Shown: positions 42-37,508 of the stretch, piece by piece
How the letters are laid out: the number at the start of each line of letters is the position of its first letter
Numbering within the stretch: position 1 is the first letter of the stretch
DNA from: a virus
Virus record (IMG/VR): IMGVR_UViG_3300044970_000782
Location: 1-37,613 of that record
Length of the DNA: 37,613 nucleotides
Direction: 5' to 3' (one strand)
The notes under the pieces: model-generated
Databases searched by the model: none
What the model was told of the DNA's origin: nothing
The model's input: only the letters and a program-made list of their open reading frames with translations
Translations under genes and position numbers: made by a program

Positions 42-188
42 AAGTTAGTGAGCACTAACTTCAAGCTGCCAGGTTAGTGAGCACTTACTAACATGTTAGT
101 GAGCGCTTACTAACAGTTGTCAGCTTGGCAAGTTAGTGAGTACTAACTTACAGTTGTCAGCCTGGCAAGTTAGTGAGTACTCACTAAC
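42..188. repeat. Array of five GTTAGT...ACTAAC palindromes
   Basis: Five 20-bp inverted repeats lie at 42-61, 73-92, 95-114, 130-149 and 169-188. The last (GTTAGTGAGTACTCACTAAC) is a perfect palindrome; the others are imperfect or have 2-8 nt centres. Copies four and five also sit inside a 31-nt direct repeat (114-144 and 151-181, one mismatch) with a 37-bp period, beginning CAGTTGTCAGC. Dyad symmetry suggests binding by a dimeric protein. Candidates are a replication initiator or a repressor; neither is identified in the window. Confidence 0.9.
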
Positions 189-265: not shown

Positions 266-274
266 TGTGGATAA
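266..274 (-). promoter_or_regulatory. DnaA box (perfect consensus)
   Basis: TGTGGATAA is the exact complement of the consensus DnaA box TTATCCACA. It lies in an AT-rich stretch between the palindrome array and the GTTAGTCAT arrays. A single perfect box can occur by chance, but its position in the only large non-coding repeat region supports a role in host DnaA recruitment. Confidence 0.6.
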
Positions 275-297
275 CTTTTTTCTTGTCAAAATACTAT

Positions 298-323
298 GTT
301 AGTCATGTTAGTCATGTAGTCAT
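298..323 (+). repeat. Tandem GTTAGTCAT units (right-facing)
   Basis: Two exact 9-bp copies (298-306 and 307-315) are followed by an 8-bp variant GTAGTCAT (316-323). They share the GTTAGT core with the larger palindromes at 42-188 but have a different flank, CAT instead of GAG, so they may be half-sites for the same protein or sites for a second one. Confidence 0.85.
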
Positions 324-423: not shown

Positions 424-441
424 ATGACTAACATGACTAAC
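424..441 (-). repeat. Tandem ATGACTAAC units (inverse of the 298 array)
   Basis: Two exact copies of ATGACTAAC (424-432 and 433-441) are the reverse complement of GTTAGTCAT. With the array at 298-315 they make an 18-bp inverted repeat separated by 108 bp. Further single units occur at 478-486 (direct) and 500-507 (inverse, one base short). Confidence 0.85.
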
Positions 442-572
442 AAAAAGCAAAAAGCCGCTAGCCGCCTTGATTCTCACGTTAGTCATCACGCGCATTTTCA
501 TGACTAAAAATCAGCTAAATTCCGTTACAAATTAATGCAAAGTTAGTAACGCAAACTAATGTAAAATAATCC

Positions 573-2670: not shown

Positions 2671-2732
2671 GCCGGGTGCTCCCCCCGGCGATCAGTGCCA
2701 CTTTTGGCCCGGCCTTGCGCCGGGTCTTTTTT
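2671..2732 (+). terminator. Terminator ending the left plus-strand operon
   Basis: Two GC-rich hairpins lie in tandem: GCCGGG/CCCGGC (2671-2676 with 2684-2689) and CCCGGC/GCCGGG (2708-2713 with 2719-2724, loop CTTGC), the second followed by TCTTTTTT. The T-run marks a plus-strand intrinsic terminator. The same hairpins lie just beyond the stop of the convergent primase gene (2731) and may also slow transcription coming from the right. Confidence 0.85.
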
Positions 2733-5043
2733 ATTTCACCAAGCGCACGGCGGCGGGCGGCGGCGCTTCCTCTACCATGCGACGCAGTTCGGATTTCGAC
2801 ACGGTATCGGCCAAGTCAGGCGCAGCAAATACATGCTTGCGCGTGCTGAATTCCCTCGACATAAGCCGCCCCATGTCTATCCAGCCCGCTTCTTTGAGCG
2901 CGTGTAGTAGCGCCTGCTGTACTACCCTAGTACCCATCGGCGCGCCACCCTGCAGGCGGTCGCAGAGCGCGTAGAACGGCGACGCGATGACGCCTGCGGA
3001 AAACTCACCCAGGCGGCGCTCGATCATCTCGACCAGATACGACTCGGCGGTACTGCGCCCCTGCTCGATCATGATGATCTTCGCTTCGGTCAACGGCGGC
3101 GCGGCGCCCGGATTGAATCGACTTACGTCGCGCTCGTATAGCCACCCTGCGGCCACGGCCAGCCCGCCCGCCTTGTACCAATTCCAAACGGCCGTGGCCT
3201 CGGCCTCGGTCATCCTCGGCGCGTCGGAGTACGTCACGAACCATCGGCGGTCATCACCGGCCAGCGACAATGGCACGCGCTCATTTGAGAACGCGAGCAC
3301 GAAAATGCGGTTCAGCGCCTGGTACGGGTGCAGCCCCTTACGGTTGACCTGCAAGAACTCCGGCGGCGCGGCGATGATCGGCTTTAGATGGTTCTCGAGC
3401 GCGCGGCGATCCTTCGCTTCGGACTGGCGCAGCTCTTCGAAGACCATCACCTCGGACTCCAACGCATAGCCCCACTGCGACTGAATCTCTTCATTGCGTA
3501 CGATCTTGACATTCGCGAGCGCTTCGCCACCAATGCCCCATAGCAGCGGTTGCCACATCGTATCCTTGCCGCTGCCTGGGTTGCCAATGTGCAGCACGGC
3601 GTGATTGATTTTCTGGTTCGGATGCTGCAGCTTGTATGCCATCACGTTTAGAACGTGCTCGCGCTCGACGTCATCGGGAATCATCCGCTCGACGTGCTCG
3701 AGCCAGATGCGCGCGTTGCCCGTGGCCGCGACGGGCCGCTGATTGATCCAGCGGTTACCGTACACTTGGCCCTCACGCGATACCAGCACGGACTCGCCTG
3801 CGGCATACGTGATGCCTGCTAACGCGAGCGCACCTTTCGCCTGTCGGTTCTCGTCAAAGCATACAGACGCCTCAATTCGGCGTTTCTGTTTGCTCGGGTG
3901 GATTGAATAGCAGGTGACGTGCCGAAAGAGTGCATTAAAAGTACCGCGCGCAACCTCTCGCCGATCTTGCAAATCAAAGTAAGCGTCATCTTCCTGAATG
4001 TATGCAAAGCGCTCATACCAACCCTCTTTCGTCGTTCTATCCAATTGCTTGCGCTCGACCTCGGCAATCACCTCGGCGCCCTTGTCCGGGAACGCCTCAG
4101 TCGGCTGCAGTTTGGCGAGCGTCTGATCCATGACAGCGGCCAGCAGCTCGTCACGCAAGCCTGGCGCGTGTTTCGGGCCGCCCTGCGCGGCCACCCAGTC
4201 AAGAAACGTGTGCGAGTCGAGATCAAGGCAATGCGAGTGCAGGCAGCAGTACGCACGCATGGCCGGGTTGTAGCGGCCCTCAGGGTTGCCATCGGTGTGC
4301 TCGCCACTGTTCGGGCAGATAACACCCGCCCACCCTTGCGGATTCGGGCGCGAGAGTAGCAACCCTTGGCCGGACAACCATGCCATCACGTCATCGGCGC
4401 CATCGTCCGACAATCGGATCGGGCGCAGTGTCAGCGAGTCGGCAGGCGCTGGCGTCACGCCTAGCCCTGCGCAGAGCTCGGCCAGCGTGTACTCGCGCTC
4501 AGGGTGGAACTCAACCAAGCGGGCCGCGAATCGGTTCTTGTTCGGCTTTAGATTGATCGAGCCGGGTAGCCGGAAGTTGCGCACAGGGTTGCAGGCGCCG
4601 GGGTCGGTGTAACCAGCATCGGCCACCGCGCGGATGGCGGCAGCGTACTCGCCCTTCGTTGGCTGCTCGGAAAAGGTGTAGCCCCACTGGTACGAGCCCT
4701 CGGACGTCTCGATGATCCACGTCGGCGGCACGGTCGGGGTGTTCGGCGCCTTCTCGGGGTCACCCACGTCATCCAGCACCATCACGAGCACGTACTCGCA
4801 ATTCGCAGCGGACGCGCTCACATGGCCGTTATCAAAACGGTCGATGATGAACGACGCGGTATTGCCGTAGATGGCCCAATCAGGCTTGATGTTGTGGCTT
4901 GGCAGGTACGCAGGCCACGTACACTTGATAGCGCCATCGGCATGGAACTGCAGCTCGCCAGCTTTTAGTTGTGGCTTTTGGCGCACGATCAGCGCCGTCT
5001 CGCCTTCGGGTGCTAATTTCTGATAGTATTCAATGAAATCCAT
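2731..5043 (-). CDS. Primase-helicase (AEP-like primase plus SF3/DUF5906 helicase)
   Basis: The 770-residue protein would make primers and unwind the fork. Residues about 55-180 resemble an archaeo-eukaryotic/RepB-type primase: acidic LDDVGDP near 90-96, SYQWGYTF near 117-124 and RNFRLPGSINLKP near 155-167. A Cys/His cluster follows (C243, H249, C266, C267, H271, C272), likely zinc-binding. The C-terminal half is an SF3-like ATPase of the DUF5906 type: Walker A GNPGSGKD (487-494), Walker B VMVFEE (532-537), then a sensor region with FSNE. I chose ATG 5043, with AGGA upstream, over longer starts that run into the polymerase gene. It lies 44 nt downstream of the polymerase gene, with a hairpin between. 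Confidence 0.92.
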   Translation of the reverse strand: MDFIEYYQKLAPEGETALIVRQKPQLKAGELQFHADGAIKCTWPAYLPSHNIKPDWAIYGNTASFIIDRFDNGHVSASAANCEYVLVMVLDDVGDPEKAPNTPTVPPTWIIETSEGSYQWGYTFSEQPTKGEYAAAIRAVADAGYTDPGACNPVRNFRLPGSINLKPNKNRFAARLVEFHPEREYTLAELCAGLGVTPAPADSLTLRPIRLSDDGADDVMAWLSGQGLLLSRPNPQGWAGVICPNSGEHTDGNPEGRYNPAMRAYCCLHSHCLDLDSHTFLDWVAAQGGPKHAPGLRDELLAAVMDQTLAKLQPTEAFPDKGAEVIAEVERKQLDRTTKEGWYERFAYIQEDDAYFDLQDRREVARGTFNALFRHVTCYSIHPSKQKRRIEASVCFDENRQAKGALALAGITYAAGESVLVSREGQVYGNRWINQRPVAATGNARIWLEHVERMIPDDVEREHVLNVMAYKLQHPNQKINHAVLHIGNPGSGKDTMWQPLLWGIGGEALANVKIVRNEEIQSQWGYALESEVMVFEELRQSEAKDRRALENHLKPIIAAPPEFLQVNRKGLHPYQALNRIFVLAFSNERVPLSLAGDDRRWFVTYSDAPRMTEAEATAVWNWYKAGGLAVAAGWLYERDVSRFNPGAAPPLTEAKIIMIEQGRSTAESYLVEMIERRLGEFSAGVIASPFYALCDRLQGGAPMGTRVVQQALLHALKEAGWIDMGRLMSREFSTRKHVFAAPDLADTVSKSELRRMVEEAPPPAAVRLVK

Positions 5044-5063
5044 CGCAGTCCTTGTAGTTGAAG

Positions 5064-5089
5064 AAGCCGCCCCGCCAGGCGGCTTTTTT
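5064..5089. terminator. Intergenic hairpin between polymerase and primase genes
   Basis: AAGCCGCC (5064-5071) pairs with GGCGGCTT (5078-5085) across a 6-nt loop. A T-run follows on the plus strand, so as an intrinsic terminator it faces opposite to the genes. On the coding (minus) strand it sits directly after the polymerase stop codon and could set relative mRNA levels or block antisense transcription coming from the left. Confidence 0.5.
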
Positions 5090-7031
5090 ATTTGCCGTAA
5101 CGCGTCATTGTCTCTACTTCTGCCGACAATGGCAGACCAGCCGCCCACTCAGGCGGCGTGCACATCACTTGTTGCAGGGTATTGGGTGCATCAGGATTAG
5201 CCGTCTCCAGAACGATCTCATCATGTACGTGCAGCACTACATCATCCAGCTGGCGTAAAGCGTGCCGCAGCAGATCGTTGGCGACTGCCTGCGTAATATT
5301 CTCACAGGCAAGCCCACGCCACAAGCGAGCACGCGGCCATTCCTTCGCATCGGCTGCAGGTTTCCATGCCGCCTTCACATATGTGATCTCGTCACCCTCA
5401 AACTTAGCAAATGGATAGCACAGCACACGCCCCGATGGCAGCGCGTACCAAAGATGCTGGCCGCTGTACAAGTACGTCACCCGCCCCGCTGAGAACTCGC
5501 GCCCAGGGTTGCGCAGAGCACGCGTGTACGCCTCTTCGAGCTTGGCCCAGTAGCGCACCGCCCACGCGTTTGCCCGCCGCCATGCGTCAACAATCCGACG
5601 GGCGTCGGACTCCGGCATGATGACGCCGTAGTTGCGGCCCATCGCCGCGAACGCACCGACCGAACCGCCGAAGCCAAGCGAAAGAATCGCAACCTTGCCG
5701 ATCTGGCGCTGCTCCTTGTCGACGCTATCCTCGGCCACGCGGTAAATACCGGCGGCCTCACGTTTGTAGATGTCACGGCCATCGCGAAAGACCTGCAGCA
5801 CGTCATCAGCCTGCGGGTCGGCAGACGCCCACGCGGTCACCCGCGCTTCAACGGCAGACCAGTCAGCAACAACGAATTGTTTACCAGGTGCAGGGATCAG
5901 TGAGGGCCGGAGCATCGACCGGAGAACATCAGTAACGCGTTTTCCAAATCTTGGGGTGATGCTGTGGCCTCTGACCATAGCGTGCCGTACATCATCGGGC
6001 TCTGCTGCACACTTTCGGGTGAAGTTGTGGACTTGAGCGCCGTAGCTCGACGCACGCCCGGTGGCAGACCCTCCGGCGAAGACAAATGCACCTCGTACAC
6101 GGTGATCAACTTCGTCAGCCAGCTCGCCAAGGCGGCTGAACTTCGCAACCGACGACGCCCAGAGATCGTCGGCACATTGAATGACGTCCGCAACATGGGT
6201 CGGAATCTCATCGGGGTTTTCCTCTGCAAAAGCCAGTAGATTGGCGCGTACCGCCTTATCGATACTGTACTTCTTTTCGCCATCTTTGTAGACCTCCATC
6301 ATCGTCAGTGCCTGCGGCCCGACACGGTCTAGCACCCACTGGCGCATCTTCGGACTGCGTACTGACAGAATCTCACCCTCGGTCAGCTCAGCTACCAGCG
6401 TCTCGATCTCGCCCAGCTCAGTCGATGCGTACTTGACCGCTGCTTGCGCCAGCGGTAAGTCCAGCAGCACGCCACGGTCGTTGATGCGCTCGTTGACATG
6501 GTAGTCGGCCAGCTCGTCGTCTGACAGCGGGCGCATGGCTTTGCTGATCTCGCGCATCACTTTGACGTCGGTTTCGCAATAGCGAATCATCTCGGCCAAA
6601 AGGGCGGGATCGTTATTAAATGATCCATCAGCGCGGGGTACAGATAGTGCTCGTATGAGTTGCTTTCCTCGGTGGTCTTTGCGCATGTTGCTGCTGATGG
6701 CGCGTCCAACGTCTTCAAGGCTGCCCGGTAGGCAGTTAGCACGCGCTTGTGCAGCGGTGCAGACGAACTGCTCGAGCCGAAAGTCACACTCAAGGACGTA
6801 ATAGAAGACAAGCCGCTCGAACGCGGCGTTGTGCGCGTATATCGGCCCTGTGTGGTTGCGTACGGCATCAGGGAATGGCTGGTCGGGCGTCCAGGTGACA
6901 ACGTCACCGTCACCAAACGCATAGGACATGCACAGAACATCCGTGCTTGCATCTTGAGCATAGTTATACACCCCCTTGCTTGTGAGATCGCAGCGACTGC
7001 GCGTCTCAAAGTCGATCCAAAGTATTTTCAT
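5088..7031 (-). CDS. DNA polymerase, family A, with 3'-5' exonuclease
   Basis: The 647-residue replicative polymerase starts MKILWIDFETRS. The proofreading domain has Exo I (D7, E9), Exo II (YAHNAAFE, 65-72) and Exo III (YCETDVKVM, 151-159). The polymerase domain has motif A ADWSAVEAR (389-397, catalytic D390), motif B around 441-456 (QRQIGKVAILSLGFGG, with Lys446) and motif C HVHDEIV (601-607, D604). All catalytic residues appear intact. There is no N-terminal 5' nuclease domain, as is usual for phage enzymes. No strong ribosome-binding site precedes the ATG. It lies between the putative ssDNA-binding gene and the primase-helicase. Confidence 0.97.
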   Translation of the reverse strand: MKILWIDFETRSRCDLTSKGVYNYAQDASTDVLCMSYAFGDGDVVTWTPDQPFPDAVRNHTGPIYAHNAAFERLVFYYVLECDFRLEQFVCTAAQARANCLPGSLEDVGRAISSNMRKDHRGKQLIRALSVPRADGSFNNDPALLAEMIRYCETDVKVMREISKAMRPLSDDELADYHVNERINDRGVLLDLPLAQAAVKYASTELGEIETLVAELTEGEILSVRSPKMRQWVLDRVGPQALTMMEVYKDGEKKYSIDKAVRANLLAFAEENPDEIPTHVADVIQCADDLWASSVAKFSRLGELADEVDHRVRGAFVFAGGSATGRASSYGAQVHNFTRKCAAEPDDVRHAMVRGHSITPRFGKRVTDVLRSMLRPSLIPAPGKQFVVADWSAVEARVTAWASADPQADDVLQVFRDGRDIYKREAAGIYRVAEDSVDKEQRQIGKVAILSLGFGGSVGAFAAMGRNYGVIMPESDARRIVDAWRRANAWAVRYWAKLEEAYTRALRNPGREFSAGRVTYLYSGQHLWYALPSGRVLCYPFAKFEGDEITYVKAAWKPAADAKEWPRARLWRGLACENITQAVANDLLRHALRQLDDVVLHVHDEIVLETANPDAPNTLQQVMCTPPEWAAGLPLSAEVETMTRYGK

Positions 7032-35286: not shown

Positions 35287-35543
35287 CAGCATTTCCACCT
35301 TTTCAATGACGCTTTGGCACGTTCACCATCCTTCGCCTTCGCCGCTACCGCACCCATGCGGGCACAGAACGACTTTTTACGTCCTTCATCCGCTTTCGTC
35401 TTCGGGCTGGGCGCAGGCGCCTTCAAATTCGACCCCGTCTCGCGGTTGTACTTCTCCCGCCCCTTGGCGGTCAAGCCTGCACCCTTAGACACGGGCAGCT
35501 TCTCGCCTCGTCCAACGCTTAGCGACACGCCTTTCTTAGCCAT
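35286..35543 (-). CDS. DUF6321-like small basic protein
   Basis: 85 residues from ATG 35543, in a TGATG overlap with the terminase stop. It contains KGAGLTAKGREKYNRETGSN, then LKAPAPSPKTKADEGRKKSF and CARMG, a pattern I recognise as DUF6321. The whole protein is basic. Such genes sit beside terminase or portal in many podophages, and their function is unknown; a DNA-binding or packaging role is plausible. Confidence 0.85.
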   Translation of the reverse strand: MAKKGVSLSVGRGEKLPVSKGAGLTAKGREKYNRETGSNLKAPAPSPKTKADEGRKKSFCARMGAVAAKAKDGERAKASLKRWKC

Positions 35544-37081
35544 CACGCCCCCATCCAGCCGGTTGCAGCTGCCACGCGGGGCGTGTAGCCATCACTGCGG
35601 CGTGCCGCACGCTCGTAACCAGACTCACGGCTGGCCACCGGGAACGCGAACGTCACCGCGAGGGCGTCTGCTGCATCCGGCGAGGCGAGGCCGCGTGACT
35701 TCATCTCTTTCTTGCCTTCCAAATAGATCGTGCCTGACGAATCGGGCTTCTTCATCGGGCCGGTCAAGTCCGCTTTCAACTGCCGATCATTCGGGATGCT
35801 GGCTGTTTTCAGCCACTCCTTCATCGCGCCCCACATCTCGGCGCGCTTGTTACCCCACATGACCGGCTTGCTCGACTTCCAGCCGAAGTTCACTCCCCGC
35901 ACCTTGTATCGCTGTTCTTTTAACCTGTCAAGTATGCCGTAGCCAAGACCACCTTCGTCGATGATTGTCAGTGCTGGCCGGTACTCTTCAATCGCGTCAA
36001 TCACCCGTCCGACGGTCGTCATGGTGTCCTCGCCGTGGTAGCGTTTGATTGCTACCAAGTCGCGTCCTTGCCGGACGACGATGACGGTTGCGTCCGCGCC
36101 GCCGCGAGCTGGGTCAACGCCGATAACAATTGGCGCCGTTTCGTCCTTGTAGCGTGGCCGACTGGCGGCGTCGTCGATAGCACTCGCACCAATAAACTGA
36201 TCTTCGCCAGCCGATGGAAATTCACCGTAGACTTCAACCCGAGCCTGCGGCGAATCTTCGCCATACTCCGCAATGATCTGCTCATATATTTGCTTGTCCG
36301 TATCTTCGACTGTGCGTGAGTCGATGTTCTCCGTCTGCCAGAAGTTGCGCTTGGCATGGAAACACTCGTAGAAGTAGCCTTGGTTACGCCGAGGGTTGGA
36401 GAACGCAAACCAATACCGGTCTAGGATCGGTTCGGTAAAGAAGCCCGCACCGACCGACCAGATCGCGTCGGGGATACCCGAGGCCTCATCAAAGATCAGC
36501 ATCATGCCGTCGTGGTTGTGCACACCGGCGTAGCTGTCCGGATTCTCTTCCGACCACAACTTGCCCTCGGCTGCCCAGTAGCGCGTACCCTTCTTTAAGT
36601 CGCGCTCGACCAGCTCAGTCAGCCATTTGGCAGGCGTCAGCTTGGTCGCGCTGATCTCCCACCAGTGGTTGTTGATCACCATTGCTTGCCACTTAGTCAG
36701 CTCACCCCAAGTGACAGAGCGGAGCTGCGCCTCACTGTTGGCTGACACTATGACACTAGAGCCGATGCGGGTGGTCAGCATCCACAGCACCAGCCAGCTG
36801 ACTAGGGCCGACTTGCCGATACCGCGACCAGACGCGACCGCTGTGCGCAGCGCGTCCATGTTTAGTTGGCCACGGTTGTCTTTCAAATGCTGAGCGATGC
36901 GTCGCAGTATCTTGCGCTGCCAGGTGCGCGGGCCTTTGAACTTGGCCAGCGGCGTGTTGGCTTGCCCCCACGGGAAGGCGAACAGCACGAACGCTTCGGG
37001 GTCGTCGGCTATCTGCGGCGCCCATAGGCGCGCCATCAGTAGCTGTTCGCCCTCGGCGTCATAGATCGGCTGTTGTGCCAT
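35543..37081 (-). CDS. Terminase large subunit (TerL)
   Basis: 512 residues. The packaging ATPase has Walker A SGRGIGKS (84-91) and Walker B LIFDEA (195-200), with the coupling residues in FAFSNPRR (226-232). The C-terminal RNase H-like nuclease has VIGVDPARGGADATVIV (Asp323), TIIDEGG (Asp375) and a late SPDAADALAV with a third Asp. All catalytic groups look intact. It cuts the concatemer and drives DNA into the prohead through the portal. It overlaps the small subunit gene by 23 nt. Confidence 0.97.
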   Translation of the reverse strand: MAQQPIYDAEGEQLLMARLWAPQIADDPEAFVLFAFPWGQANTPLAKFKGPRTWQRKILRRIAQHLKDNRGQLNMDALRTAVASGRGIGKSALVSWLVLWMLTTRIGSSVIVSANSEAQLRSVTWGELTKWQAMVINNHWWEISATKLTPAKWLTELVERDLKKGTRYWAAEGKLWSEENPDSYAGVHNHDGMMLIFDEASGIPDAIWSVGAGFFTEPILDRYWFAFSNPRRNQGYFYECFHAKRNFWQTENIDSRTVEDTDKQIYEQIIAEYGEDSPQARVEVYGEFPSAGEDQFIGASAIDDAASRPRYKDETAPIVIGVDPARGGADATVIVVRQGRDLVAIKRYHGEDTMTTVGRVIDAIEEYRPALTIIDEGGLGYGILDRLKEQRYKVRGVNFGWKSSKPVMWGNKRAEMWGAMKEWLKTASIPNDRQLKADLTGPMKKPDSSGTIYLEGKKEMKSRGLASPDAADALAVTFAFPVASRESGYERAARRSDGYTPRVAAATGWMGA

Positions 37082-37508
37082 GCGTCAGTTTGGTGGGTAA
37101 CGTGTGCGGTTGCTGTTCGGTAATCAGACCGTCGATCACGCGTTCCTGCGCCTGTTGCAGCGCCTGCGTGATGCTGATCCGGTTCGTGATGTCGACACTA
37201 ATCTCTTGACGTGCTGTCCAGCCGTGGCTGTGCTGCAGGATCGCCAGCGCCGCCTTGCTGTCGCCAGCGCGGGCTGCCTCACGCAAGTGCATAGAGGCCT
37301 CCATCTCGGAGTCAGCGCGACCCTTCTGTTCTGCCATCGCAGCCACCGGGTCTAGCTCGCACAGCTGCCGGTATTCGGTCGGCAGCAATCCAGCCGCTAA
37401 CGCCAGCGAGTCGCCCTTCAGACCCAAAGCAGCGGCGTCATAGATCGCCTGGAGACGCGCCTCTGTCGCCTCCACTTTGCGTGGGGTGAACGGGATGGAT
37501 TTGAACAC
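37059..37508 (-). CDS. Terminase small subunit (TerS)
   Basis: 149 residues from GTG 37508, with AGGAG at 37514-37518. The N-terminal half has a helix-turn-helix-like LQAIYDAAALGLKGDSLALA, then AAGLLPTEYRQLCEL. It is followed by a helical oligomerisation region (EMEASMHLREAARAGDSKAA, then LAILQHSHGWTARQEI). The layout and position match small terminases that recognise the pac or cos site and stimulate TerL. It is first in the late operon. Confidence 0.88.
   Translation of the reverse strand: MFKSIPFTPRKVEATEARLQAIYDAAALGLKGDSLALAAGLLPTEYRQLCELDPVAAMAEQKGRADSEMEASMHLREAARAGDSKAALAILQHSHGWTARQEISVDITNRISITQALQQAQERVIDGLITEQQPHTLPTKLTHGTTADL

Follow-up and report, generated by a model that had tools for sequence, protein, structure and literature searches.

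The window, the whole stretch of DNA analysed here (37,613 nucleotides), is an entire linear IMG/VR record (IMGVR_UViG_3300044970_000782). It belongs to a P22-like podophage with genes for a family A polymerase, a primase-helicase, a portal, a coat protein and a terminase. Comparison with close relatives, which were fetched by their polymerase alone, showed that the two ends of the window adjoin within about 25 nt. This places the palindrome array at its left end upstream of the gene at 37059-37508. In the relatives, the gap that holds the array separates the rightward early genes from a leftward gene that neighbors the large terminase gene. The proteins beside the array could not be assigned to any DNA-binding family. 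A 50-residue HTH-like protein mentioned in the first-pass annotation was not recovered: close to the array there is a single 50-aa ORF (1506-1658), and it overlaps a DUF7227 gene.

The first-pass annotation had described five inverted repeats of one design at 42-188, the last of them a perfect palindrome. All five are present, and the last is indeed perfectly palindromic. Their half-sites follow the pattern GTTAGTGAG...ACTAAC, and nothing comparable was found in the remainder of the 37.6 kb. The individual sites and the neighboring features are listed in Table 1.

Table 1. Palindromic sites, candidate origin elements and relevant genes of the window (SBS, SlmA-binding site; scores are from the phage-trained weight matrix)
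Feature	Position	Strand	Sequence or remark	Score (bits)
SBS-like site 1	44-63		GTTAGTGAGCACTAACTTCA; weakest site; also readable as an 8+4+8 palindrome at 42-61	19.9
SBS-like site 2	73-92		GTTAGTGAGCACTTACTAAC	30.1
SBS-like site 3	95-114		GTTAGTGAGCGCTTACTAAC	29.4
SBS-like site 4	132-151		GTTAGTGAGTACTAACTTAC	30.4
SBS-like site 5	169-188		GTTAGTGAGTACTCACTAAC; perfect palindrome with the exact SlmA core GTGAGTACTCAC inside	32.1
DnaA box	266-274	-	TGTGGATAA, complement of TTATCCACA; TTATCCACA read on the - strand; separate module, possible origin element	
9-bp repeats, two copies	297-315	+	TGTTAGTCA; diversifying between relatives; possible iterons, outside the SBS array	
Inverted copy of the 9-bp repeat pair	424-442	-	19/19 complementary to 297-315	
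Further 9-bp repeat unit	478-486	+	GTTAGTCAT, of the TGTTAGTCA family	
Primase-helicase	2731-5148	-	DUF5906, with a weak match to RepB_primase; possible initiator if an origin lies near 266-506	
Terminase large subunit	35543-37081	-	phrog_2	
Gene adjoining the array across the contig ends	37059-37508	-	Lies directly upstream of the large terminase gene, in the position of a terminase small subunit; no family recognised	

A weight matrix with a maximum of 32.1 bits was trained on 139 sites from the relatives found by polymerase only. With this matrix, the array comprised the five best independent sites of the window; the best site outside it scored 6.6 bits, and the maximum over 20 Markov-shuffled windows was 12.9 bits. 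A division of the repeats into two spacing classes (GTTAGT-N4-ACTAAC and GTTAGT-N8-ACTAAC) was considered and rejected. One 20-bp site suffices, and an A at position 14 appears to create the second ACTAAC. At positions 1 to 38, a G-rich stretch (CCCACACCCCCC on the + strand) adjoins the array and is kept even in relatives that lack the array.

The repeat sequence, which had not been recognised at first, was now matched to the binding site of the nucleoid-occlusion factor SlmA, which keeps bacteria from dividing across their chromosome. The 12-bp consensus core of SlmA is GTGAGTACTCAC (PMC3116907), the 20-bp SBS consensus in Escherichia coli is GTAAGTGAGCGCTCACTTAC, and the natural site SBS17 reads GTTAGTGACCATTTACTTAC (PMC4423959). 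The array is made of 20-bp palindromes with this core, which is exact in site 5, and the phage consensus GTTAGTGAGTACTCACTAAC agrees with the published 20-bp consensus except for positions 3 and 18 and the two central bases. When scored on the phage-trained matrix, the published consensus reached 28.9 of 32.1 bits and SBS17 reached 17.4 bits, compared with the null maximum of 12.9 bits. In bacterial genomes, TetR-family genes often lie beside this palindrome; SlmA is the member of the TetR family for which such a site has been published. On these sequence grounds, the array can be described as five predicted SlmA sites, four of them near-consensus, a description that we hold with moderate confidence jointly with the host-capture reading developed below. 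Against SlmA, other TetR-family regulators in other phyla adjoin the same palindrome, and a different TetR protein could be the binder of the array. In actinobacteria, the palindrome was seen in the gap between TetR genes and a NAD(P)-binding oxidoreductase-like neighbor (L205, L214, L217, L223, L225, L228, and L229), which possibly reflects an SlmA-like specificity outside the proteobacteria.

Among the relatives of the window, the array is common and variable. The first-pass annotation had suggested searching for the repeat in related phages, and the outcome was divided: at least two palindromes were present in 25 of the 34 polymerase-found relatives with a readable gap, and close relatives such as L044 and L049 had no array. 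Between relatives, the copy number shifts by gain or loss of whole units, with the half-sites kept. Several contigs, the window at its start among them, end in or beside the array; those of L015 and L029 stop 38 bases beyond the first base of the DnaA box. These ends may be assembly breaks at a variable repeat region or real genome ends.

Across IMG/VR, the SBS pattern occurred in at least 120 stretches and the reversed pattern in none. Clusters of at least three sites within 350 bp were found in 66 of 122 motif-found viral loci versus 0 of 34 bacterial loci. When grouped by shared ORFs, the loci with at least two sites fell into 16 lineages, three of them with several members. No gene family common to all array-bearing lineages was found, and in loci with nameable genes the clusters often adjoined terminase genes of different families. 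Among 50,697 phage records, no DNA match to positions 1 to 700 of the window was found, and near-perfect SBSs were essentially absent. No SBS cluster was found in the scanned DNA of the named relatives MW202483, MW202545, and Caulobacter phage RW. Pairs of Noc sites, searched for in phages with a strict pattern, numbered 0, a negative that says little either way.

In other lineages, the SBS clusters are accompanied by sites for further host proteins, namely, Fur boxes, NtrC boxes, and sigma-54 core promoters (consensuses from PMC4506495, PMC8743547, and PMC4371752, respectively). Near SBS clusters, these sites occurred at 0.18, 0.36, and 0.27 per kb, compared with 0.003, 0.002, and 0.005 per kb elsewhere in the same loci, an enrichment of about 50 to 150 times, with reversed-pattern controls near zero. 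The association also held in the opposite direction: in loci fetched independently by tandem NtrC boxes, SBSs lay nearby in 19 of 61 (0.67 versus 0.004 per kb). The layouts of these islands vary by lineage. We place the array in a broader set of intergenic phage islands that gather consensus sites for several host DNA-binding proteins (SlmA, Fur, NtrC, and sigma-54), which suggests a general capture or sponge role. The composite islands favor such a role over that of a promoter or an origin. Tandem consensus NtrC boxes were seen in 70 IMG/VR stretches, with up to 7 in 400 bp and SBSs often nearby (L263-L323 and others). Tandem consensus sigma-54 core promoters were seen in 96 stretches, with up to 10 in 400 bp and some in both directions (including L324-L396, L108, L156, L175, and L191). 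Two relatives of the window without an array carry a Fur-like box, in L065 at the position of the array (4 mismatches of 19) and in L073 in the same intergenic region (5 mismatches of 19).

For the array of the window, the best explanation is that it captures a host protein, with SlmA drawn to phage DNA and division blocked. We regard this as rather probable, although binding, host, and division effect are all steps that we infer. SBS-bound SlmA antagonises FtsZ polymerisation, and a multicopy plasmid bearing two SBSs, together with SlmA, caused a lethal division block in E. coli by global inhibition of the Z ring (PMC3573117, PMC4117426). By analogy, a phage that replicates with five SBSs on its genome could have this effect during infection. 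As the phage genome multiplies, host SlmA would shift from the nucleoid to phage DNA. It is in its DNA-bound state that SlmA breaks up FtsZ polymers, and Z-ring assembly would thus be blocked throughout the cell. The host would then stay undivided during infection without any phage protein being made. SlmA is present at about 500 dimers per nucleoid versus 24 to 52 chromosomal SBSs; some 100 phage copies with five sites each would offer about 500 sites, equal to the SlmA dimer pool. The plasmid-borne division block in E. coli required about fourfold overproduction of SlmA (PMC4117426). The preference of the array for a terminase flank is not explained by division control.

The binder is probably the SlmA of the host. 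No SlmA/TetR-like gene was hit among 11,082 viral ORFs, from loci many of which are partial, and an HMM built from the palindrome-associated TetR proteins had no match in the viral ORFs; this absence is what points to a host protein. The only host clue, a weak one, is that L237, from the same phage clade, was binned in a betaproteobacterium MAG. In the betaproteobacterial family to which L237 points, 37 of 41 genomes encode SlmA above the NCBIfam cut-off, and the recognition helix of the SlmA genes checked there resembles that of E. coli. SBS-like sites are few on the chromosomes of this family, with 32 matches in 40 genomes versus 9 for a control pattern and 13 of the 32 in one genome; thus, the specificity of its SlmA for SBSs is presumptive.

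Alternatively, the array could be an operator, through which SlmA or another host TetR-family protein regulates the divergent terminase or early genes, so that the phage reads the state of its host. The first-pass annotation had offered an operator array as its second choice, and this stands in kind, as an array of protein-binding sites. In the clade of the window, the array starts about 93 to 251 bp upstream of the leftward gene. SlmA is known to activate the chitobiose promoter in Vibrio cholerae (PMC5519180), and the NtrC and sigma-54 sites of related islands are transcription elements. However, no fixed geometry relative to a promoter or gene start was found: the copy number ranges from 2 to 8, the spacing from 18 to over 100 bp with no helical phase, and the distance to the gene varies, with the array downstream of the adjacent gene in L119 and L196. 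A promoter scan at the array gave no more sites than shuffled sequences did, and in E. coli, SBSs upstream of a promoter left lacZ expression unchanged (PMC3573117). Ten sigma-54 cores packed within 400 bp (an upper count) would also make poor promoters. Regulation of this kind is therefore considered unlikely.

Another role considered was that of a replication origin, in which a theta origin would comprise the DnaA box and the palindromes as its initiator or helper sites. Much of what the first-pass annotation had cited for this reading was borne out: a perfect consensus DnaA box, the sole exact one in the window, lies 77 bp past the array, the DNA beyond it is AT-rich (57-74% AT versus roughly 45% over most of the genome), and a primase-helicase gene is nearby. 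In addition, a second repeat family (TGTTAGTCA), not singled out previously, lies beyond the box. The 9-bp tandem repeats vary among close relatives (TGTTAGTCA, TGTGGGTCA, TGTAGGCAA, TGTGGACAA, TGTTGGCTA, and more), as seen in the window and in L012, L019, L032, L052, L072, L075, and others, whereas the SBS palindromes are constant. These repeats look like iterons with a fast-changing specificity. A comparison of repeat type with primase and polymerase segments gave no specific covariation signal, and phylogeny confounds it. Thus, a phage origin at 266-506, made of the DnaA box and the 9-bp repeats, is plausible, whereas the theta-origin reading is weak for the palindromes themselves, whose sequence matches a known host-protein site. 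The box was present in 22 of 25 polymerase-found relatives with an array versus 1 of 9 without, a contrast confounded by ancestry. The two do not always occur together: of the 50 array-bearing regions in the clade of the window, 18 have no box, while one array-less region of the clade keeps it, and in about 15 other array-bearing lineages there is mostly no DnaA box nearby. Arrays also occur in phages without the replication genes of the window. Since box and array are linked in close relatives but not in other lineages, the DnaA box and 9-bp repeats were treated as a neighboring module. The GC-skew check proposed earlier did not help to place an origin, as the skew tracks gene strand and has no single turning point. 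An origin function of the palindromes is thus very unlikely.

The least probable role is that of a packaging-site helper, in which a host protein beside the terminase genes would help in recognising cos or pac, in the manner of IHF at lambda cos; SBS clusters do adjoin terminase genes in many lineages, but these terminases are of different families while the sites stay the same, the sites vary in number and spacing, the flank of the terminase is in many cases simply a large non-coding gap, and Fur, NtrC, or sigma-54 sites replace SBSs in other islands.

If the capture of SlmA is correct, an array that turns the nucleoid-occlusion factor on FtsZ would be a different kind of takeover device, one missed by gene annotation, and would offer a test, set up by nature, of how division control depends on where SlmA sites lie and how many there are. 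More tentatively, many aquatic phages might carry DNA-only islands, made of clustered intergenic consensus sites, that capture or redirect SlmA, Fur, NtrC, and sigma-54 while the phage genome is multiplying, seizing control of division, iron, and nitrogen without phage proteins; we consider this wider proposal possible. If the composite islands are sponges, this non-coding phage DNA would be regulatory and searchable by known host motifs, and the motifs would hint at hosts.

As in the SBSs of E. coli and the engineered multicopy plasmids with two SBSs, the array combines a 20-bp palindrome, the core GTGAGTACTCAC, and several sites on a multicopy replicon. It differs in being natural and phage-borne, with five clustered sites nearer to the consensus than SBS12 or SBS17, whereas the chromosomal SBSs of E. 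coli are dispersed and mostly in coding DNA. Compared with iteron origins and the primase-helicase origins of the phage P4 type, the window likewise has an array of repeats in the neighborhood of both a DnaA box and a primase-helicase gene. However, its palindromes fit a site for a host protein and are also found where such replication genes are absent, and as candidate iterons the 9-bp repeats close by are the better choice. DNA titration sites, such as datA-like DnaA traps and synthetic regulator decoys, similarly bind up a host protein through clustered high-affinity sites; the array differs in being phage-borne, and the related islands are aimed at several host regulators together. The literature searched, which took in little of the subscription literature, contained no report of SlmA sites in phage genomes. 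The outcome proposed for the array, a blocked host Z ring or division, is like that of known phage division inhibitors, namely, lambda Kil, the T7 and SPO1 proteins, and DicB/dicF, and the phage inhibitors discussed in the literature are gene products (PMC3961180). Those described so far are proteins or RNAs, whereas the array is DNA proposed to recruit a host inhibitor.
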